From the IMG/VR virus record IMGVR_UViG_3300037193_001436, positions 43,210 to 107,209 of that record: a stretch of 64,000 nucleotides of DNA; one strand, written 5' to 3'. Under the pieces are notes generated by a model. It did not search any database. It was given only the letters and a program-made list of their open reading frames with translations, and was not told the origin of the DNA. Every line of letters begins with the position of its first letter. The first letter of the stretch is position 1. The stretch is from a virus. Position numbers and translations under genes: made by a program. Of the stretch, positions 19,682-43,542 are shown in pieces.

Positions 19682-21289
19682 CTACGAGGGTGTGTCGGCC
19701 AGATAGGAGGTCAACGAACCGACCGTGTTCTCGATGACTCCCTTGCTGTCGGCACCGACTCCGTCCAGGGTGGCGCTGGCCACCTGGCGCTTCATGGCCA
19801 GCATCTCGTAGGTGCGTTCCTCGATCGATCCGCCGATCAGGTAGTTCAGGATGTAGACCTGCTGGTGCTGCGACCCTACGCGGACGTGGCGGCCGTTGCG
19901 CTGGTCCATCTTCCCGGCCGACCAGGCCAGGTCGACGTTGATCAGGTAGTTGGCCTGCGGGAGGTCGACCCCATAGCCCCCAGCGTCCGACGAGACGAAC
20001 AGCCGGACGTCGGGCTCTGTCTGGAACAGCACCCGCGCGGCGGCCTTCTGCTTGACACTCATGTCGCCGGTGTAGGTGACCGCCTGCGTGTGGGTGGAGC
20101 CGAGCCGGTCGGCCAGTTCCTGGACCATGTCCTTGTAGAACGAGAACAGGATCACCTTGGCGTCCGGCTCGGACTCCAGAATGTCGGTGACGTCGGCAAC
20201 GATCTGGTCGAGCTTGTTCGAGGGCGCATCGACCAGCAGCCCGGCCTCCATCAGCCCGGCGGCATAGGCCGACCCCTCCCCGTCGCCCTTGAGGTACTTC
20301 TCGGCGGACCTCTGCAGGAGCCGGGGATGGTCGCAGAGCATCAGCATGGCGCTGGTGCGAGCCATGATCTCCCCGGCGGCGCTGCCGAGCTGACTGGGCA
20401 AGGTCCCTGCGTAGTACTGGGTGAGGTCGAAGCTCTGGGTCATGTTGGCGTCGGCCAGCGCGGTCTGCAGATCCCCGGCGATCCGCTTGTAGAGCTTGCG
20501 GAGGCTGGGGTGCAGGGTGACCTGCCGGACGGACTCCTGGACCTGCGGCAGGTACTTGGCCACATCGGGGTCGGTCCTGGTCTTGCGGACCATCGCCTTG
20601 CTGACCTTGCGGTGCAGGACCTGCAGGTTCTTGTACTTGACCACCCCGCCCCAGTTGTTGCGGACGATGAACGAGCGGTCGAACAAGTCGAACCGGCCGA
20701 GCACGTGCGGGTCGACCCACTCCATGATCGAGTACAGCTCCTCCGGCCGGTTCTCCACCGGCGTACCGGTAAGGGCGTACCGGAACGGTGCGTCGAGTCG
20801 CTTGGCGAGCTTGGTGCGTTTGGCCCGGAAGCCCTTGATGGCCGAGGCCTCGTCGAGCACGATGCAGTCCGGCCTCAGCTTGCGGATCCAGCGGAAGTCG
20901 TTGCGGACCTGCTCGTAGCTGACGATGACGAACTCCGGCCGGTCCCGCAGGGCCTGCTGGTAGGCGGCCTTGCGCTTGTCCGGCGTACCGTCGACCACGA
21001 CGCAGCCGGACTGCTCTGGCACCCAGATGTACACCCCTCGGCGGAGCTGGACCCGGCGGCAGGAGATGTCGGTGAACTTGGCGATGCTCTCGGCCCACTG
21101 CCACTTCAGCCCGGCCGGTACGACGAGCAGGGACTGCCTAACGGCTCCCTCGGCGATCAGTTCCTCGATGGTGGCCAGGGCGACCAGGGTCTTGCCGAGG
21201 CCCATGGTGTAGGCAACCAGCAGGGAGCCTCGCTCGACCGCCCGGTCGACGGCCTCTTCCTGGTAGGGGTGCAGGTCAACCGTGAGCAC
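19682..21289 (-). CDS. SNF2-family DEAD/H helicase
   Basis: The 535-residue protein has the two RecA lobes of Swi2/Snf2 ATPases: Q-like LHPYQEEAV, Walker A TMGLGKT, Ia LLVVPAGLKWQW, motif II LDEASAIKG, III LTGTPVENRPEE, then IV VILFSFYK, V SDAGGYGVDLP and VI QRNGRHVRVGS. Such proteins translocate on duplex DNA and may remodel nucleoprotein or drive branch migration. Phage versions usually sit in replication clusters as here. It overlaps the primase by 14 bp. Confidence 0.92.
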   Translation of the reverse strand: MLTVDLHPYQEEAVDRAVERGSLLVAYTMGLGKTLVALATIEELIAEGAVRQSLLVVPAGLKWQWAESIAKFTDISCRRVQLRRGVYIWVPEQSGCVVVDGTPDKRKAAYQQALRDRPEFVIVSYEQVRNDFRWIRKLRPDCIVLDEASAIKGFRAKRTKLAKRLDAPFRYALTGTPVENRPEELYSIMEWVDPHVLGRFDLFDRSFIVRNNWGGVVKYKNLQVLHRKVSKAMVRKTRTDPDVAKYLPQVQESVRQVTLHPSLRKLYKRIAGDLQTALADANMTQSFDLTQYYAGTLPSQLGSAAGEIMARTSAMLMLCDHPRLLQRSAEKYLKGDGEGSAYAAGLMEAGLLVDAPSNKLDQIVADVTDILESEPDAKVILFSFYKDMVQELADRLGSTHTQAVTYTGDMSVKQKAAARVLFQTEPDVRLFVSSDAGGYGVDLPQANYLINVDLAWSAGKMDQRNGRHVRVGSQHQQVYILNYLIGGSIEERTYEMLAMKRQVASATLDGVGADSKGVIENTVGSLTSYLADTPS

Positions 21290-22286
21290 TGGACATCCAG
21301 GGGAAGCTCGCCTTGCTGATGCTGGCGCGGATCTCGGTGTGGGCCATCTCGCCGGGGTCCTTGACCTTGTACATGTACGGCATCACGAGGATCTGCATCC
21401 GTCGGTGCCACTCGTTGTAGATGCGTTCGGAGTTCTTCCGGCCGTCGGGGTCGTTGTCCAGGGCAAGGATCAGGGAGTCGAACCGCTCCAGCACGAGCTG
21501 CATCTGGACGTCGCTCACTCCAGCGCCGTACGACGACAGCGCGCCGGGGATCCCGGCGGACCAGATCACGGCGGCGTCCAGTGGTGCCTCGACCATGATC
21601 GCCCGCTTGCCGGGGTCGGGCTGGTCGAGCCCGAACAGGGTACGGGACTTCTCCACCTGGCGCGGGCGGTTGCGGAAGTAGCGGCCCTCGACGGCCTTCT
21701 CCTGCCATCCCAGCAGGGTGTTGGTCGCCGGGTCGCGGATCGGGGTGATCCAGGCATCCTTCTGCGGGTCGTAGAGCACACCGTAGGCCGCCGCTGCCTC
21801 GGCCGTGATGTTCCTGGTGGCGAGGACGTTCCTCGGCGGCGGGATGCACAGCGCGAGGTCGGCCTCGGTGATCGCCTTCCGCCGGTCCTTGCGTGTCAGC
21901 TCGTGGATGTAGCCGCCGGTGAGCAGGTGCTCGACCCGGTCGAGGCTGCCCCGGGAGCGGACCCAGGCGTCGGCCTCGTTGCTGGGCAGGTCCAGGACCT
22001 CGCGGACGACGGCGGCGAACGGGCCCCGAAAGCCGCAGGCGAAGCAGTTGTGCACGCCGGTGTCGATGTTCACCGACCAGGATGGGTCGTTGTCTTCCTT
22101 GCCGACCAGCCGTAGATGCCCGGGGCAACGGGCTACCGCCTCGTCGCCGGTGATCCGCAGCACCTGGATGCCGAGTTCGTCGAGGCACTTGAGCACGTCG
22201 CCGGGGACCCAGAGCGGTCCGTTGTCGCGGTCCTGCTTGAGGCGGCGGGTGCGGTCCCAGCCGCTACTCGAATCCGCTCTGCGCAT
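21276..22286 (-). CDS. DnaG-type primase
   Basis: This is the primase of the replisome. It has a CHC2-type zinc ribbon (CPGHLRLVGK with a later CFACGFRG), DNA-binding helices and a TOPRIM domain: VEAPLDAAV, LALDNDPDG and the preceding YGAGVSD. I choose the ATG at 22286; an upstream ATG at 22322 would add 12 residues and lengthen the overlap with the helicase gene. The protein lacks the C-terminal helicase-binding domain of bacterial DnaG, as is common in phages. It overlaps DnaB by 23 bp upstream and SNF2 by 14 bp downstream. Confidence 0.9.
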   Translation of the reverse strand: MRRADSSSGWDRTRRLKQDRDNGPLWVPGDVLKCLDELGIQVLRITGDEAVARCPGHLRLVGKEDNDPSWSVNIDTGVHNCFACGFRGPFAAVVREVLDLPSNEADAWVRSRGSLDRVEHLLTGGYIHELTRKDRRKAITEADLALCIPPPRNVLATRNITAEAAAAYGVLYDPQKDAWITPIRDPATNTLLGWQEKAVEGRYFRNRPRQVEKSRTLFGLDQPDPGKRAIMVEAPLDAAVIWSAGIPGALSSYGAGVSDVQMQLVLERFDSLILALDNDPDGRKNSERIYNEWHRRMQILVMPYMYKVKDPGEMAHTEIRASISKASFPWMSSAHG

Positions 22287-23535
22287 CGACGTCGGCCTGG
22301 TTTTCCTTCGCGAAGGGGTCATACTCCAGCTCCTCGAAGATCCCGGTGTCCCAGTCCCACCGCACGTACTTCTCCATCCGGCGGGTGCTGCGTCCGTCGA
22401 GCACCTTCAGCTTGTTGATGTCGTCGATTTCAGTCTTCTCCACGCCGACGACCAGATCGGAGTCCTGCAGGAAGGAGGAGGAGTAGCCGATCGAGTCGCT
22501 GGTGATCCCGCGTCGCTTGTCGGTCTTCCAGCTCAGCGCCTGGGTGGACTGGACGATCGGCAGGTCAAGGTTCTGGGCCAGCCGCTTCATGCCCCGGGTG
22601 ATGTTGGTGATCGCCTGCGGTGAGCCCTGCGGCTCACCCTGCTCGTCCCGCATCATGTAGACGCCGTCCACGAACACGATGTCGGGTTCGCAGCGCTCGA
22701 TCTGTGCCTGGAGTCCGGTCAGCGTGGTGGCGGAGTTGATGTCGGAGCTGACGAAGAACTCCGGCATCGCGACGAGCCTGCGCCAGGCCCGTTCGAGCCG
22801 CTTGTACTCGTCAGGGTTGAGGGTCCCGGTGCGCAGCCGCTGGTGCGACACCCTGGCCAGGAAGGCGGCGTGTCGGGTCTGCTGTTCGGGGTTGGACATC
22901 TCGAAGCCGACGGTCAGCGGCCGGAACGCGTGGTCGTGGGCGGCCATTGCCGCGAGCAACATCAGGGTCGACTTGCCGGACTTCGGCAGGCCGACGAAGG
23001 TGATGAGCTGTTGGTTCTGGAAGCCCTGGGTCGCCTGGTCGATCGAGTGGAACCCGCTGGGGATCCCGAGCAACTTGCCGTCGCGCTTGCGCAGCTCGGC
23101 GTAGGCGGCTCGTCGTCGCTCCAGGGTCTCGGCCGTCAGGTCGTCGATGAAGGAGCGCGGGATCTCGTTGTGGAGCTGGCTCATCGACTGGGCCAGCACG
23201 TCGAGGCTTTGCTCGGACTCCCCCATCTTCAGCAGCTCGGAGGCGCGCATCAGCCCGTCGGCGAGGATGGCGTACCGCCGGTTCTCCCGCATCTCGTCGA
23301 GCAGGTACGCCAGCGGGTGCTGTTCCGGATCGGGGAACGTGACGGTCGGGTAGTCCTTGTGCAGGACGTCGAGGCTGGGAACCTTGCCGTACCGGAGCTT
23401 GTAGTCGGTGATCGTCCGGAACAGCGTGCGGTTCATCCGGTCTTCGAAGAAGTCCGCCGTGATCCCGGCATCGCTCACGGCACCGAAGTTGCCGGTCGCA
23501 ACGATGCTGGCGATGAGGCTGCGCTCGATGTCCAT
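22264..23535 (-). CDS. DnaB-like replicative helicase
   Basis: The 423-residue ATPase has an N-terminal helical domain (residues 1-115), then a RecA fold with Walker A FVGLPKSGKSTL near residue 180. It has motifs GFEMSN, PDIVFVDGVYMM (Walker B) and QSTQALSWK, the sensor preceding a basic loop. This is the ring helicase that unwinds DNA ahead of the polymerase. The order DnaB, primase, SNF2 in one overlapping operon supports coordinated expression. The stop sits inside the primase gene. Confidence 0.92.
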   Translation of the reverse strand: MDIERSLIASIVATGNFGAVSDAGITADFFEDRMNRTLFRTITDYKLRYGKVPSLDVLHKDYPTVTFPDPEQHPLAYLLDEMRENRRYAILADGLMRASELLKMGESEQSLDVLAQSMSQLHNEIPRSFIDDLTAETLERRRAAYAELRKRDGKLLGIPSGFHSIDQATQGFQNQQLITFVGLPKSGKSTLMLLAAMAAHDHAFRPLTVGFEMSNPEQQTRHAAFLARVSHQRLRTGTLNPDEYKRLERAWRRLVAMPEFFVSSDINSATTLTGLQAQIERCEPDIVFVDGVYMMRDEQGEPQGSPQAITNITRGMKRLAQNLDLPIVQSTQALSWKTDKRRGITSDSIGYSSSFLQDSDLVVGVEKTEIDDINKLKVLDGRSTRRMEKYVRWDWDTGIFEELEYDPFAKENQADVDAQSGFE

Positions 23536-23985
23536 CTACCAGGCTCTCAGGATGTCGGGCTGGGCGGGGTTGATGATCCGGCCCTTCTTGCCGTAGGTCA
23601 GTTGGTGTGCCGGGTCAGGGTCGAAGATCGCACCGAGGTCCGGCATGGTTGCGATCTTGCGGGCCAGCTTGTTCGGCTCGGCGTACCAGACCCGGTGGAC
23701 CGGCAGGTCCTGGTTGTCGATCCAGTGCTCGATGTGTTCGACAGCCTTCGGGTCGAGGTAGGTGACAACCTCCAGTTCGTAGTGCAGTTGCCAGGTGACG
23801 TGCCACATCTGCCGGGCCAGTGGTTCATTGACGACCATCTCCTCGACGGCCCGCTTCCAGCGCCGGGTGCGGACCCAACTGTCGTAGCGGATCCGCATGA
23901 GGTTGCCGGGCACGATGCCGACCAGGTGCTCGAAGACCAGGACCAGCCGGGGCACCAGCTCGTTGGACAGGTCACCGCCCTGCAC
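23536..23985 (-). CDS. HAD-like hypothetical protein, 149 aa
   Basis: The start is taken as GTG at 23985, overlapping the previous gene by 14 bp. A hydrophobic strand ELVPRLVLVFEHLV is followed by WVRTRRWKR. The distal part has KLARKIATMPDLGAIFDPDP, consistent with the last conserved segment of a HAD or related fold. The phosphatase assignment is weak. Co-transcription with DnaB suggests a nucleotide or replication role. Confidence 0.65.
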   Translation of the reverse strand: MQGGDLSNELVPRLVLVFEHLVGIVPGNLMRIRYDSWVRTRRWKRAVEEMVVNEPLARQMWHVTWQLHYELEVVTYLDPKAVEHIEHWIDNQDLPVHRVWYAEPNKLARKIATMPDLGAIFDPDPAHQLTYGKKGRIINPAQPDILRAW

Positions 23986-24205
23986 GTGCGTCCCACTCCA
24001 GCGGGAGTTCGAGCTGGCCGTCGACCTGGCTCGGGGTGTCGTTCCTGAGCAGCCAGCGACGAGCGTCGTCCAGGATTTCGTAGGCCAGCTCGGCCTCGTG
24101 CGGACACGTACCACGCGTGGCCTGGTCGAGCCTGGAGAGCAGTCGGATGTACTGGTCCCGGGAGACCCGGATCTCGTCTGGTGTCTTGCCTACGACAACG
24201 ACCAC
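23972..24205 (-). CDS. Hypothetical protein, 77 aa
   Basis: This short helical protein has RDQYIRLLSRLDQATRG and AELAYEILDDARRWLL helices and a Leu/Pro-rich end. The gene overlaps the HAD-like gene by 14 bp. No family is recognised. Confidence 0.7.
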   Translation of the reverse strand: MVVVVGKTPDEIRVSRDQYIRLLSRLDQATRGTCPHEAELAYEILDDARRWLLRNDTPSQVDGQLELPLEWDARAGR

Positions 24206-24234: not shown

Positions 24235-24906
24235 TCAGGATTGCGGTTGGTCGTTGCCTGATTCAAGTTGATGGTTTGGGTCCAACAACTGCGATCGCAA
24301 ACGTTCTTCGACCCGGAGTTCCTGTAAGGCGTTCCGGTAGTCGGTGTCGTTCGCCAGCGAACCGTACTGGTTGCCGGGAACGGTCTTGAGCTGACCAGCG
24401 GCGTCGAGCCGCTGAATCTCGTCGGTGGCGTACTGGGTCTTCGCCTGGTCCCACAGGTCGGTCCAGTAGTCGTCGATGAACTGGTTGACGATTGCGTTCC
24501 GGGTCATGTGCTCATCGACGTAGTGCTGCCAGTAGATCCGGATCATCCGGCCGAGCAGGTCCTCGGTCAGGTCGTTGCCGTGCTGGCGAATGAACGCCCA
24601 GATCTGCTGGTCGTGCTTGATCTTGGTGACCAGGTCCTCGGCGAGCTGCCAGGGGCTGACCACGCGGGTCCGGCCGTAGGCCTTGCCGGTCTCGATGAAC
24701 AGCCGTACGAGCCGCCAGGTGCGCTCGGTCCGCTCCGGCGGACAGGGCGGGAAGTCGTGGTGTTGCTGCGGCTTGGGCTGGGAGGGAGCCCGCCAGGACC
24801 GGCGGGGTCGTTCCTCCGGCTGCGGCCGGTCCTCCAGCTCGTTCTGTGCCAGTGACAACGGATCGTCACTCCCAGGTGGCCGGAACTTCTCCCGACGGCC
24901 AGCCAT
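24235..24906 (-). CDS. Hypothetical protein upstream of DnaB operon, 223 aa
   Basis: The ATG at 24906 follows GGGCTGGGTTG, and an upstream ATG at 24981 lies inside the iteron array and is less likely. Residues 1-70 are Arg/Pro-rich and disordered. Residues 75-190 are helical with many Trp and Tyr. The gene is the first of the replication operon, immediately downstream of the iteron array, so helicase loading is a possible role, but no loader motif is visible. Confidence 0.7.
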   Translation of the reverse strand: MAGRREKFRPPGSDDPLSLAQNELEDRPQPEERPRRSWRAPSQPKPQQHHDFPPCPPERTERTWRLVRLFIETGKAYGRTRVVSPWQLAEDLVTKIKHDQQIWAFIRQHGNDLTEDLLGRMIRIYWQHYVDEHMTRNAIVNQFIDDYWTDLWDQAKTQYATDEIQRLDAAGQLKTVPGNQYGSLANDTDYRNALQELRVEERLRSQLLDPNHQLESGNDQPQS

Positions 24907-24961
24907 CCAACCCAGCCCCTTCCTATGTCTATTCCTAGGTAAATCCCTATGTCTTATGGAA

Positions 24962-25047
24962 GGGTCAGTCACTGACCCCATAAAAGGTCACTCACTGACC
25001 TATCGAAGGGTCACTCACTGACCCCTTGAAGGGTCACTCACTGACCC
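24962..25047. repeat. Four 23-bp iterons, candidate replication origin or operator
   Basis: Four 17-bp dyads start at 24962, 24985, 25008 and 25031, exactly 23 bp apart. Each reads GGGTCACTCACTGACCC or a one- to two-base variant: GGGTCA and TGACCC arms around a 5-bp CTCAC-type centre. Spacers are 6 bp (cataaa, atcgaa and similar). The array overlaps the end of the winged-helix gene at 25015 and precedes the replication operon. A repeated CCTATGTCT lies beside it at 24925-24956. Iterons beside a DNA-binding gene are typical of origins or autoregulated operators. Confidence 0.75.
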
Positions 25048-25491
25048 ATTGCGCTGCCGGAAGTCGACTACTCTCAGTCGCGGAGGTGGCGGATCGAACA
25101 TGGGCGGCAAGGCCGTCTGGTCGGTCCGGTGGGAGGCTCGGATCATGTCGAACTGCGCCGACCAGTACAGCCGGATGATGCTCGGTGGTCGGCCTGGAGA
25201 CCCATCGCCTGGCCGTGCGTGACGGGTGAGATAGCCGTGATCGCTCTGCAGCGACGCGAGCACCTTCTTCACCGTGTTCTTCGTGAGGCTCGTCCAGGCC
25301 ACGAGCGCCGGGATCGACGAGTAGGCCTGCATCACCTGGCCTACGGGAGCCCTCTCTGGGTTGTCCTCCCGGTAGAAGGCGTGGTGGGTCAGCACCAGCA
25401 GCAGGTGATGTTCACTGGGGCCAAGGAAGGCCGCTTGCTCGAATGCCCAGTTCATGGCCACGTGACTCTTGGTGTCGCCAGGGGGTATCAT
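25015..25491 (-). CDS. Winged-helix DNA-binding protein, possible replication initiator
   Basis: The 158-residue protein has a helix pattern with LLLVLTHHAFYRED, PVGQVMQAYSSIPALVAWTS and LTKNTVKKVLASLQSDHGYL. This matches a winged helix of the type seen in replication initiators and phage regulators. The C-terminal half is Arg/Pro-rich. Its last codons lie inside the iteron array that would be its most obvious target. It is the first gene after the terminator at 25514-25547. Initiator versus autoregulator cannot be separated on sequence. Confidence 0.75.
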   Translation of the reverse strand: MIPPGDTKSHVAMNWAFEQAAFLGPSEHHLLLVLTHHAFYREDNPERAPVGQVMQAYSSIPALVAWTSLTKNTVKKVLASLQSDHGYLTRHARPGDGSPGRPPSIIRLYWSAQFDMIRASHRTDQTALPPMFDPPPPRLRVVDFRQRNGSVSDPSRGQ

Positions 25492-25513: not shown

Positions 25514-25547
25514 AGAGGGGCCCCGAAATGCCTGCCGGGGCCCCTCT
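25514..25547. terminator. Terminator hairpin
   Basis: AGAGGGGCCCCG and CGGGGCCCCTCT form a perfect 12-bp stem with a 10-nt loop, between the stop of the AT-hook gene and the start of the winged-helix gene. It separates late-side from replication transcripts on the minus strand. Confidence 0.75.
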
Positions 25548-25554
25548 TTACGTG

Positions 25555-26649
25555 TCAGTCCTCGCTGATGACGTCGCCGGTCTTCGGGTCGACGGTCCGC
25601 ATCGGGACGCCCTTCGGCGGCCGTCCACGGCCCTGCTTGTGCCAGTTGCCGTCCTCGTCCTGCCACTCCTTCACGCCGCGTTGGGCGGCGGTGCGTTTGC
25701 GGGCCGGGGTGCCGTCCTTGCGCGGCCGACCGCCCTTCGGCGAGACGTCCTCCGGCTCTTCGGCCTGGATCTCCTCGGGATCGGTCACGAGGTCGGCTTC
25801 CGTGCTGCCGGTGTACTTCTCGATCGCCTCGCCGAGCAGTTTGTAGAGCGCCGACGGCTCGACCTCAGGCTTGAGGGTCATGGCCGCGTGAGCGCAGTCA
25901 AGGCTGTGGACCAGGGACAGCGATGAGGTCAGCGCGTGCAGGACGACGTCAGCACCCACGGGCAGCGGCTTGTCCGCGACCTGAGTGGTCGTCTGTGCCC
26001 TGTGGCGGGCCCGGGATACCTCGGCCTCCACCGACTCCTCCTGGACGCTCTCAGGGGCTTCTGCGGGCTTCTCGCGGGGCTTGCCCCGGCGCGGCCGTGG
26101 GGCCTGCTCGGGCTCGTCGTCGAGGGACTTGTCCTTGGCGGTCCGGCGGCGGCGCGGTTCGGGCTCCGGTTCCGGCTCGGTCTGCTCGTCCTCGTCGTCG
26201 CCGAGGTGCAGGTCGTCGAGGCCGGAGGTCAGGTCGAGGACCTTGATCCCCTTGGTCTGAGCCAGGTCGACCAGCTTCTCGGTCGCCTCGTCGGCCTCGG
26301 ACTCCTCGCCGTAGGCCACGATCAGCCGGACCTCTTCGTCGGCCTCGGGGGCCGACAGCCGGTCGACCAGACCGAGAGACACGTTGCGGGCCTCGATCTC
26401 GCCCTTGGAGCCGTCCAGGATCCGCTTGTTCTTGCGCGTCTCGACGTCGTAGACGGCCTCGTACGGGATCTTCGAGTCGACGGTCCAGTCCAGGAGCATC
26501 AGGACGGTCTTGGACAGGTACTCGTCGGACGCCGGGATGACCACCCGGACGTCGTCATACAGCTCCAGGTAGTCGTTCAGCAGGTCGTCGATGTTGGTCT
26601 CGGTGACCTTCCCAGGCCCGGCAAACCCGAGCAAGATATTGCGTCCCAT
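25555..26649 (-). CDS. AT-hook-containing protein with charged linkers, 364 aa
   Basis: Residues 1-150 are globular, with LLLGFAGPG, VRVVIPASD and VRLIVAYG strands, suggesting a Rossmann-like fold. Residues 155-220 are low-complexity (EPEPEPEP and RRRRTAKD). Near the C-terminus GGRPRK and GRGRPPKG are AT-hook-like DNA-binding motifs. A TTG one codon upstream could be used instead of the ATG. It has its own GGAAC-GTT-AACG element 19 bp upstream and a terminator after it. A transcript-independent DNA-organising or regulatory role is inference. Confidence 0.72.
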   Translation of the reverse strand: MGRNILLGFAGPGKVTETNIDDLLNDYLELYDDVRVVIPASDEYLSKTVLMLLDWTVDSKIPYEAVYDVETRKNKRILDGSKGEIEARNVSLGLVDRLSAPEADEEVRLIVAYGEESEADEATEKLVDLAQTKGIKVLDLTSGLDDLHLGDDEDEQTEPEPEPEPRRRRTAKDKSLDDEPEQAPRPRRGKPREKPAEAPESVQEESVEAEVSRARHRAQTTTQVADKPLPVGADVVLHALTSSLSLVHSLDCAHAAMTLKPEVEPSALYKLLGEAIEKYTGSTEADLVTDPEEIQAEEPEDVSPKGGRPRKDGTPARKRTAAQRGVKEWQDEDGNWHKQGRGRPPKGVPMRTVDPKTGDVISED

Positions 26650-26667
26650 CAACCCTCTCCTCGAACG

Positions 26668-27323: not shown

Positions 27324-27947
27324 TCAGTTGTTGGGCGGAATTTGAGTTGATGGATCGAACAAAGGCCGCAGCCTCTTCATGACGACCTCGGCCCAGAAAC
27401 TGGTGCCGACCCCGTTTTTGGGGTGCACGCCGCCGGAATCGAGGTAGTAGCTGATCCGGGCGGGGTCCTGAGCGAACCACTCCGACCAGGGCACGACGTG
27501 GTTCTTGTCCAGCACGTTGCGGATCTGGTTGTTGATGAAGCCGGAGTTGCGCTGGTCGGCGGTGTAGTAGTTCGGGCGGCTGGCCTGGACGTCGACCCAC
27601 AGCAGGTGCTGGACGCCCGGCAGGGTGACGTCGAACAGCCGGTGGATCTGGGCTTCCATCACTGTGGGCGTGAAGATGTCGTTGGTGCCGGTGGCCATCA
27701 CCAGGATGGGTGGCAGGACCGTCGCCGACAGCACGTAATCGACCGCCGGGGTGGTCGGCCGTCCGCTCCAGTAGTTGACCGCCAGCGTCTTACCTTCGGC
27801 CTGGACGGCGGCCGTCAGCTCCTCCTTCCCCAGTGTGGTGATGGAGTCGCCAACGATCAGCACGTCCGCCTGGTCCATCGCCGGACCAACGTAGCCGTGC
27901 TGGTTACCCGACCAGGGCCCGAGCGTCCCTGACCCGAAGTCGACCAT
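27324..27947 (-). CDS. SGNH/GDSL-family hydrolase
   Basis: Block I is LIVGDSITTLG with the catalytic Ser, block III MATGTNDIF has the Asn, and block V SGGVHP carries the catalytic His with a short DxxH-type spacing. At 207 residues it is a compact esterase. It is encoded at the end of the tail operon, after the receptor-binding candidates, so it may deacetylate host surface polysaccharide. Its neighbour at 27947 is a small unknown protein whose TGATG stop/start couples them. Confidence 0.85.
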   Translation of the reverse strand: MVDFGSGTLGPWSGNQHGYVGPAMDQADVLIVGDSITTLGKEELTAAVQAEGKTLAVNYWSGRPTTPAVDYVLSATVLPPILVMATGTNDIFTPTVMEAQIHRLFDVTLPGVQHLLWVDVQASRPNYYTADQRNSGFINNQIRNVLDKNHVVPWSEWFAQDPARISYYLDSGGVHPKNGVGTSFWAEVVMKRLRPLFDPSTQIPPNN

Positions 27948-29429: not shown

Positions 29430-30668
29430 TCAGCCTCCGTAGGGGCCCGAGCCGTACGGGCCAGATCCGTAAGGGGTAGTTGTTGCACTCGCGCTGTCCG
29501 CGTAGACCGGATCGCCAACGACCAGCCCCAACTGAACATTCTCCCGGAGTGTCTTGCCCAAGGCGTAATGGCGATTGAGCTTGTCCTTGTAGTAGTAACT
29601 ACGCGCCTTGCCCGGCGTGCCGTCGAGTTCCCACACGTAGTCGGGCAGGCCGGAGTCGCCATCGAAGTACGGCTTGAGCCCGTTGCCCTCCTCAACCATC
29701 GCTGCATCGATCCGGATCGAGGTCGCGCCGTAGCTGGTGATCTGCAGGCTTGCGGTGACGGTGTTCGCGGTGAAGGAAACCCAGAGCCTGCGCCAGTCCG
29801 GGGCCCCCGGCATGCCGAGCGGCGCGGACTCCCAAGACATCGCGCTGGTCTCGATGCCGGTCTCATTGCGCGCGCCGTTGACCTGAATGCCGACGTCGTT
29901 GCCGTCCATGGACCGGATGTAGACGCTGGCGGTGTACCTACGGCCGGGCGTCAGGGTCTTGACCACGTGGGTGACGGTCTCGCCGAAGGTGAGGCTGGTG
30001 GCGGCGCAGCACGCGGTGCCCTTGACGGCGTCGGTGGTGATCCTGGCCAGGCTGCCGCCGACGGTTGCCCAGTCGGTGAGGTCGACCTCGAAGGACGGGT
30101 TGGTGGCGTGGTTGAGCCGCGTCGGCCGGACCCAGACGTCGAGGCTGCGAGCAGGGCTGTAGGCCGACGGGACACTGTTCTGGATCGGTGCGATCTCCCA
30201 CTGGACGTCGTCGATGTGCTGGACGGTGCCGGTGGGCATGGACTTGTAGACCAGGCCGACGGCGGCGTACGCGGCGCGCTTCCAGGCGACGTTGTCGGTG
30301 GGTGCGTACAGGGTCATGAAGTGCCGGGTCCAGTTGGCTCCGACTCCGGCGGACACTGTTCCGTTGTTGTCGGCAACGGCGATGGCCATGGCTGGGTCGG
30401 ATTCGGTGGCCGGGAAGAACGCGAAGTCGGTCATGCTGGCCAGCTCATCGCTGACCCAGATGCCGATGCTGCCGCCGATACCGACGTCGAGCGCGCCGGG
30501 AATGGCTCCGAGGTCGATCGGGACGATGACGTAGATGTCGATCGAGCCCTCGGAGAAGGCGACCGCCGGGGACTCCCCGAGTTCGGTGAGGACGGACTGC
30601 AGGATCTCCAGTACGGCCACGCCAGGGAAGTCGAGGCGGCCTTCGGCAACGAGTTGATCGGTGGTCAT
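29430..30668 (-). CDS. Minor tail protein with carbohydrate-binding-like domain, 412 aa
   Basis: Residues 1-185 are a globular N-terminal part that begins with LDFPGVAVLEILQSVL. Residues 188-330 begin NHATNPSFEVD, then GTACCAATSL, TASVYIRS and RRLWVSF, which matches the sandwich fold of carbohydrate-binding modules and related fibre domains. The C-terminus has a repeated YGSGPYG motif. It probably contributes to polysaccharide binding. It is 4 bp inside the downstream end of the gpI-like gene. Confidence 0.78.
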   Translation of the reverse strand: MTTDQLVAEGRLDFPGVAVLEILQSVLTELGESPAVAFSEGSIDIYVIVPIDLGAIPGALDVGIGGSIGIWVSDELASMTDFAFFPATESDPAMAIAVADNNGTVSAGVGANWTRHFMTLYAPTDNVAWKRAAYAAVGLVYKSMPTGTVQHIDDVQWEIAPIQNSVPSAYSPARSLDVWVRPTRLNHATNPSFEVDLTDWATVGGSLARITTDAVKGTACCAATSLTFGETVTHVVKTLTPGRRYTASVYIRSMDGNDVGIQVNGARNETGIETSAMSWESAPLGMPGAPDWRRLWVSFTANTVTASLQITSYGATSIRIDAAMVEEGNGLKPYFDGDSGLPDYVWELDGTPGKARSYYYKDKLNRHYALGKTLRENVQLGLVVGDPVYADSASATTTPYGSGPYGSGPYGG

Positions 30669-42000: not shown

Positions 42001-43542
42001 TTAGGCAGTGATCTCGGTGGTCGCGCCGCCGTCGAACTGGCCGATGCGGATGATGATGAACTCGGCCGGGCTGTTCAGCGCCACTCCGACCTCGACGTTG
42101 ACGATCCCGGCGTTCTGCGAGGCGGGCTGGTTGTTCTCGGCGTCGCACTTGACGTAGAACGCGGTCTCCGGGATGGAGCCCTTGAGCAGCCCCGACTGCA
42201 TCTGGGCGATCAGGTACTGCGTGACGACGACCTCGATCTGCTCCCACAGCGCCGCGTTGTTGGGCTCGAAGATCGCGAACGCGGTGATGTCCCGCAGCGC
42301 CTTGGACAGGCTGATCAGCGCCCGGCGGATGTTGACGTAGCGGTCCGGCATCCGGGTGTTCAGGGTGCGAGCGCCCATGATGCAGAAGCCCGCGCCGGTG
42401 ACCTGCCGGATGACGTTGACACCCGCTTGGTTCAGGGTGTCGAGCTGGGTCTCGCTGAACCGGCTGTGCACGCCGAGCACGCCCTTGACGGCGGTGTCGA
42501 GCCCGGCCGGAGCCTTGTGCACACCCCGAGAGGTGTCAGTCAGGGCGTACTGCCCCACGACAGCGCCTCCAGGGGCCACCAGGCGCATCGCGCCGGGCAC
42601 GGACGACGCCGGGTCGGCAAGGTACAACCAGGGCGCGTAGACGGCCGCGTACGACGTCTTGGGGACCGTACCGACGAAGGTGGTCATCGCGGTGGTGACC
42701 TCGGCCGCTGCGTCGGTGGCTGCGGGCTTGGGCCCGTCGACCACGACGAAGATGTTGGTGCGTCCGGCAGCCCAGTTGACGACGTCGGTGAGGGTGGTGC
42801 CGTTGCTGACGCCGGGGAGGTTCAGCGTGATGACGTTGTCCACCGCTTCGAGCTTCTTGGCGGCGGCCACCAGGTCAGGCGTGCCGGTGCCCTCGGTGCC
42901 GCCGGTCAAGGGAGCCTTGACTGCCGAGGCCGGGTTGCTGTTGGCGTCGACCCACGGCGACAGCGTGGCCAGCGTGACGTACTTCGAGCCGACCGTCAGC
43001 GAGTTCACGATCGTGACCGCGTTGCGCGAGTCGGCCGGGTCGAGGGTCAGGTCGACGAAGGTCTCGCGGGCCAGCAGGCCGCCGCCGGTTCCGGCCTCGA
43101 TGGTGAGGTCGAAGCGGGACTCGTCGGTCGAGGGCTGCACGGTGACGTAGATGCGGGTCGGGCTGGTGGCGTCGCTGGCCCAGGAGCCGGGCGAGGACGC
43201 GGTGACCTTCAGCATCGGGATCGGCGTGACGGCCGTGGTGTCGTTGATCGTCAGTGAGGCCGCGACCGCGTTGGTGTTGATGCCTCGGACGATGTAGGCC
43301 AGGTGCCCGCCGTTGCTGAAGTACTGCCAGACGCCGTAGTGCAAGTCATCCGGGCTGGAGCGGATGTCACCGAACAGGGACTGGAACTGCGTCCAGGAGG
43401 TGACCAGAGTCGGCCCGACAGGCCCGCCGCGCGTCGAGGTGCCGACGAAGGCCGCGACGTAGTCGCCGGATCCTACCGCCGGGTCGGCGAGCGGCTGAAG
43501 GCTCTCCTCGATGAAGACGCCAGGCCGCTGGTACGTAGCCAT
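42001..43542 (-). CDS. Tail sheath protein
   Basis: The 513-residue protein starts YQRPGVFIEESLQPLADPAV and has FVGTSTRGGPVGPTLVTSW, the sheath N-terminus. The C-terminal domain contains GFCIMGARTLNTRMPDRYVN and ends with EFIIIRIGQFDGGATTEI, the handshake strands of contractile sheaths. It is the contractile cover of the tail and the strongest sign of myovirus morphology. Confidence 0.95.
   Translation of the reverse strand: MATYQRPGVFIEESLQPLADPAVGSGDYVAAFVGTSTRGGPVGPTLVTSWTQFQSLFGDIRSSPDDLHYGVWQYFSNGGHLAYIVRGINTNAVAASLTINDTTAVTPIPMLKVTASSPGSWASDATSPTRIYVTVQPSTDESRFDLTIEAGTGGGLLARETFVDLTLDPADSRNAVTIVNSLTVGSKYVTLATLSPWVDANSNPASAVKAPLTGGTEGTGTPDLVAAAKKLEAVDNVITLNLPGVSNGTTLTDVVNWAAGRTNIFVVVDGPKPAATDAAAEVTTAMTTFVGTVPKTSYAAVYAPWLYLADPASSVPGAMRLVAPGGAVVGQYALTDTSRGVHKAPAGLDTAVKGVLGVHSRFSETQLDTLNQAGVNVIRQVTGAGFCIMGARTLNTRMPDRYVNIRRALISLSKALRDITAFAIFEPNNAALWEQIEVVVTQYLIAQMQSGLLKGSIPETAFYVKCDAENNQPASQNAGIVNVEVGVALNSPAEFIIIRIGQFDGGATTEITA

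Follow-up and report, generated by a model that had tools for sequence, protein, structure and literature searches.

Phased dyads at the end of a winged-helix gene mark a predicted lambda-O-type replication origin in a viral genome

Few replication origins have been mapped in large actinophages, and a group of four evenly spaced inverted repeats in an IMG/VR viral record (IMGVR_UViG_3300037193_001436) raises the question of whether such repeats serve to start replication or to control the genes beside them. The repeats lie in a stretch of 64,000 nucleotides (positions 43,210 to 107,209 of the record), which we refer to as the window. An earlier reading, made from the letters of this stretch without database searches, had placed them between a winged-helix gene, whose 3′ end they overlap, and a DnaB–primase operon and had proposed either an initiator-bound origin or an autoregulated operator. 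The features of the locus are as follows, in window coordinates.

24962–25047: iteron array of four 17-bp dyads with a period of 23 bp
24920–24960: AT-rich tract, candidate unwinding element, with 37% GC against 66% for the genome
25015–25491, minus strand: winged-helix (WH) protein of 158 aa, proposed origin-binding initiator, so called through a homologue in the closest relative (L108) and profile comparison
24235–24906, minus strand: 223-aa gene, whose position alone makes it a candidate partner or helicase loader
23536–24114, minus strand: conserved gene that immediately precedes DnaB in nearly all relatives; start codon uncertain
22264–23535, minus strand: DnaB-like replicative helicase (phrog_19, 1.1e-48; DnaB_C, 1.2e-28)
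21276–22322, minus strand: DNA primase with CHC2 zinc finger and Toprim domain (phrog_47, 2.2e-31; Toprim_2, 2.6e-8)

The four dyads occupy positions 24962–24978, 24985–25001, 25008–25024 and 25031–25047, with start-to-start distances of 23, 23 and 23 bp. All four had been described earlier as GGGTCA-N5-TGACCC; the spacing holds throughout, but this exact form is found at sites 1, 3 and 4, and site 2 reads AGGTCA-N5-TGACCT. The two changes in site 2 are symmetric, so the dyad is kept. From base composition we would expect about 0.008 exact sites per 64 kb, compared with the three that are seen, and none of 300 mononucleotide shuffles produced three sites at equal spacing when up to two mismatches were allowed. 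Chance alone often yields a single site with two mismatches, so the weight lies on clustering and exactness. The array also has the top tandem repeat score in the window (127 at period 23 and 149 at period 46). Across the full 107,209-bp record no exact dyad site lies outside the array, and because the exact sites are confined in this way, we rejected a reading of them as dispersed operators.

Between the array and the next gene (24235–24906) sits the AT-rich tract, whose 50-bp GC minimum falls in the lowest 0.06% of the window and in which a 12-bp repeat (TTCCTATGTCTA) occurs in 2.9 imperfect copies at 24920–24954. The GC skew does not change sign at the array and is uninformative, and a DNA search in 50,697 phages gave no match.

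Read along the minus strand, the order is WH gene, array, the gene at 24906–24235, the conserved gene, DnaB and primase. The TGA stop codon of the WH gene (25017–25015) falls within iteron 3, where the sequence is read as GGT CAG TGA, so that the coding sequence takes in site 4 and a portion of site 3; sites 1 and 2 are intergenic, between the WH gene and the next gene. The layout first proposed, with the array between the WH gene and the DnaB–primase genes, changes in these respects: the WH gene ends inside the array, and a separate gene and then the conserved gene come before DnaB. We take ATG 24906 as the likely start of the downstream gene because of a purine-rich stretch upstream of it and its agreement with the homologue in L108; an alternative start at ATG 24981, inside the array region, is possible.

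On the other side of the WH gene, between it and the gene at 25555–26652, positions 25514–25547 form a perfect 12-bp inverted repeat (AGAGGGGCCCCG / CGGGGCCCCTCT, 10-nt gap) that resembles a terminator or processing hairpin and was not scored by a terminator scan. The gene at 25555–26652 encodes 365 aa, and both its sequence and its position before the initiator are conserved in many of the DnaB relatives. Also upstream of the replication genes, 27324–27947 and 29430–30668 encode proteins with weak likeness to GDSL lipases and carbohydrate-binding modules (CBM_4_9).

The WH protein itself gave nothing above threshold against Pfam and the PHROGs (phrog_6643, 0.11), no match in Pfam at an E value of 0.1, Rep_3 included, and no match among named phages; searches of viral contigs with this protein and with the product of 24235–24906 returned no relatives. 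The winged-helix call of the sequence-only reading has no direct support from either family collection; it rests on the L108 homologue (phmmer, 2e-10) and on profile comparison. The L108 protein matches phrog_270, annotated as "replication initiation protein" (1.8e-5), and the O-like phrog_18020 (0.0011). When the window and L108 pair was aligned with hhalign to the array-bearing family described below, the comparison reached 92%, over only 37 residues of a common helix-turn-helix shape. A profile search of the PDB returned mostly generic MarR, GntR and Crp winged helices, along with one chain of a chromosome replication initiation protein, and single-sequence structure models, with pLDDT values of 41 and 51, were too poor for fold searches.

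We scanned 2.9 million viral contigs for the same dyad, requiring two GGTCA-N5-TGACC sites, and obtained 68 loci, compared with 5 for one scrambled dyad of equal composition. After dereplication of these loci to 31 clusters, 36 of the 44 dereplicated spacings (range 15–45 bp) lie at 21–24, 32–35 or 44–45 bp, or about 2, 3 and 4 turns, classes that were picked post hoc with the data already seen; the concentration is at 22–24, 33–35 and 44–45 bp. In a test over all periods between 8 and 14, the periodicity of the spacings was matched by none of 2000 uniform draws. Single linkage groups the array-covering ORFs of 41 loci into one family, and by our own tally the array lies within the winged-helix O-like initiator family in 20 of the 31 clusters, with 10 of the 31 unassigned. 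Among 42 array-associated ORFs, matches were to phrog_270 (29), the O-like phrog_391 (27), HTH_36 (19) and Phage_rep_O (8). Within these initiators the array usually comes directly after the WH domain, often near residues 95–165, where it encodes linkers that include GSxxDP and GQxLTP. A stricter scan with an N4 version of the dyad gave 56 loci, with an O-like initiator ORF over the array in 53 of them and 16 of 20 spacings in classes similar to those of the N5 form. The fact that the same dyads recur at similar phases inside the O-like winged-helix initiator genes of many phages gives good support to the earlier idea of an initiator-bound origin. In many uncultured phages, a simple DNA pattern would then locate the origin along with its initiator.

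Relatives of the window were also collected through DnaB, without regard to repeats, and no N5 array was found in them. Many have a fused initiator, consisting of a WH domain, a linker and a C-terminal domain, followed by a DnaC-like loader, the conserved gene and DnaB. In 17 such relatives, hand-picked after the data had been seen and in some cases close kin of each other, 6 initiators contain repeated perfect dyads, and the other 303 kb contain none. Two of the DnaB relatives (L146 and L149) carry GGGTCA-N4-TGACCC inside the initiator, at spacings of 22, 23 and 34 bp, and another (L122), in which the initiator is split as it is in the window, has GTGTCAC/GTGACAC dyads near the end of the WH ORF. 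L108 has both the gene order and the split of the window, with different dyads in the same gap, so the array of the window is not conserved in sequence. The sequence-only reading had looked to the loss of the repeats from relatives that keep both neighboring genes as evidence against its proposal; what we observe is replacement rather than loss, since L108 keeps the neighboring genes and carries a different set of dyads at that position. Across the relatives, the position of the dyads is kept and their sequence is exchanged.

On these comparisons, we predict that the array is a phage replication origin of lambda-O type, and we consider this its likely function. We infer that a dimer of the WH protein (25015–25491) probably occupies each 17-bp dyad and that four dimers, set on one face of the helix by a period of 23 bp, or about two turns, would build an O-some-like complex. 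Such a complex would open the AT-rich tract at 24920–24960, and the DnaB helicase and primase encoded downstream would then be brought in, perhaps with the help of the 24235–24906 product.

Phased dyads are also typical of operators, and the array could serve as an operator only, through which the WH protein would control a promoter for the 24906 gene and the helicase–primase genes, with no origin function. Its place directly upstream of the start of the next gene fits such control, as does the arrangement at two of the scanned loci (L029 and L038), where the array is upstream of a winged-helix gene. At most of the other loci, however, the array sits mid-gene within the initiator, well away from any gene start. 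In addition, a scan for promoters of the sigma-70-like type found none around the array, and the AT-rich tract beside it fits an origin, and we regard a purely regulatory role as unlikely. Partition sites, too, are formed by phased repeats together with a small DNA-binding protein, and the array might be a centromere-like site bound by the neighboring protein, or have some other nucleoprotein role, with no part in replication. We find this highly improbable, given that no partition gene was identified beside the array and that the proteins covering the arrays elsewhere are replication initiators.

The product of the gene between the array and the conserved gene gave nothing above threshold against protein families (DnaI_N, at 0.019, is below its own cut-off), and a homologue of it stands at the same place in L108 with 29% identity in a pairwise alignment. 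We considered the protein as a counterpart of the C-terminal domain of the fused initiators, an assignment that found no support: the resemblance is limited to the region around MIRIYW/MIITYW. A DnaC-like loader is present in one relative (L079), and with this protein and PF01695 as queries, no DnaC-like AAA+ loader was found in the record of the window or in that of L108, both of which may be incomplete. The apparent absence of an AAA+ loader raises the question of the route by which DnaB is loaded.

We tentatively suggest, as a possibility that we would place somewhat short of an even chance, that the initiator is divided in this lineage, with a WH binder whose gene stops in an iteron and a separate recruiter of DnaB that acts free of an AAA+ loader, and that among related phages the recognition helix and the dyad arms covary while position and phase stay fixed. 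If the split form is true, the part of such an initiator that binds DNA and the part that recruits the helicase are able to function as two proteins. The split might itself be unreal, in that sequencing errors or stop readthrough could mask one fused lambda-O-type initiator; the reading of the array as an origin would stay. The WH gene and the 24235–24906 gene do lie in one frame, in the window as in L108, and the initiator is fused in most relatives. Three stops nevertheless stand between the two ORFs in the window, L108 and L122 are split as well, and the downstream protein does not significantly resemble the C-terminal domain of the fused initiators. A small HTH-like gene in L040 and L050 ends in the same manner as the WH gene, with its stop codon (...GQ*) in the first iteron, and we think it very unlikely that the split is only apparent. 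L040 encodes an integrase-like protein, so these two contigs may be integrated elements.

The recognition helix of the WH protein in the window reads TKNTV. Judged by eye, 13 of 20 GGTCA-N5 clusters have its Asn, compared with 0 of 66 ORFs from the DnaB relatives, all of them without an N5 array, the helix residue having been picked after looking. A Fisher test of Asn against N5 gives 4e-7, a value that rests on an estimated 28 distinct helices with phylogeny ignored. Three members of the DnaB-relative group (L135, L146 and L149) have KETV at this helix; L146 and L149 are those with the N4 array, and the L135 contig was returned by the N4 scan. The occurrence of KETV in these N4-associated contigs suggests that the Asn may accompany the N5 form of the dyad, which we offer as a lead. 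The dyad pattern makes a direct test of initiator–dyad pairing possible.

Origins inside initiator genes are already known. The iterons of the lambda origin, which are imperfect inverted repeats, lie in gene O next to an AT-rich tract (PMC7466680). The locus described here resembles the lambda O-some origin in its four inverted-repeat iterons, its AT-rich tract and the helicase genes downstream (PMC7466680), and its WH protein may be a lambda-O-like initiator, going by the L108 homologue and profile comparison. It differs in the sequence of its dyads, in a next gene that is not recognizably P, and in the location of the array: the initiator gene has its stop codon within an iteron, which puts the array at its 3′ end and not mid-gene as in lambda. 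Since coding sequence covers no more of the array than site 4 and some of site 3, we describe the locus as probably working like a lambda-O origin and do not file it as one.

Repeated dyads just past the WH domain of the initiator gene are also found in the Streptomyces phages SV1, Picard, SoJo and Eklok, but these read GGCCG...CGGCC and CGGGA...TCCCG, and the initiator is fused. The BRock-type Streptomyces phages (BRock, Alone3 and pSt2308), with genomes of 112–116 kb, share with the window a DnaB (~36% identity), a primase and the conserved gene before DnaB. They differ from it in having a free-standing C-terminal domain gene and a DnaC-like loader, and no dyad array was found in 15-kb stretches of them. 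Iteron plasmids of the Rep_3 or P1 RepA type have phased repeats bound by a winged-helix initiator; unlike in these plasmids, the WH protein has no Rep_3 match and the dyads lie where the initiator gene ends. PMC7157519 reports no repeats for mycobacteriophage RepA origins. In the open-access literature, to which our search was confined, we found the shared dyad, its phasing across phages and an initiator that ends in its own origin nowhere described.

Some of the N5 loci are exceptions, with arrays that fall in a very long ORF, as in L016 and relatives, or elsewhere. The 45-bp repeats in the very long ORF, present in 14 related loci, were not counted as origins. In L016, L021, L026, L028, L044, L063 and relatives, GGTCACCCTGTGACC recurs every 45 bp in two blocks ~1458 bp apart, within an ORF of up to 2026 aa, and is apparently a coding repeat unrelated to initiators. 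Dyads much like those of the window (GGGTCACTCACTRACCC, ~22 bp apart) also occur in L023 and L048, near long non-initiator ORFs.
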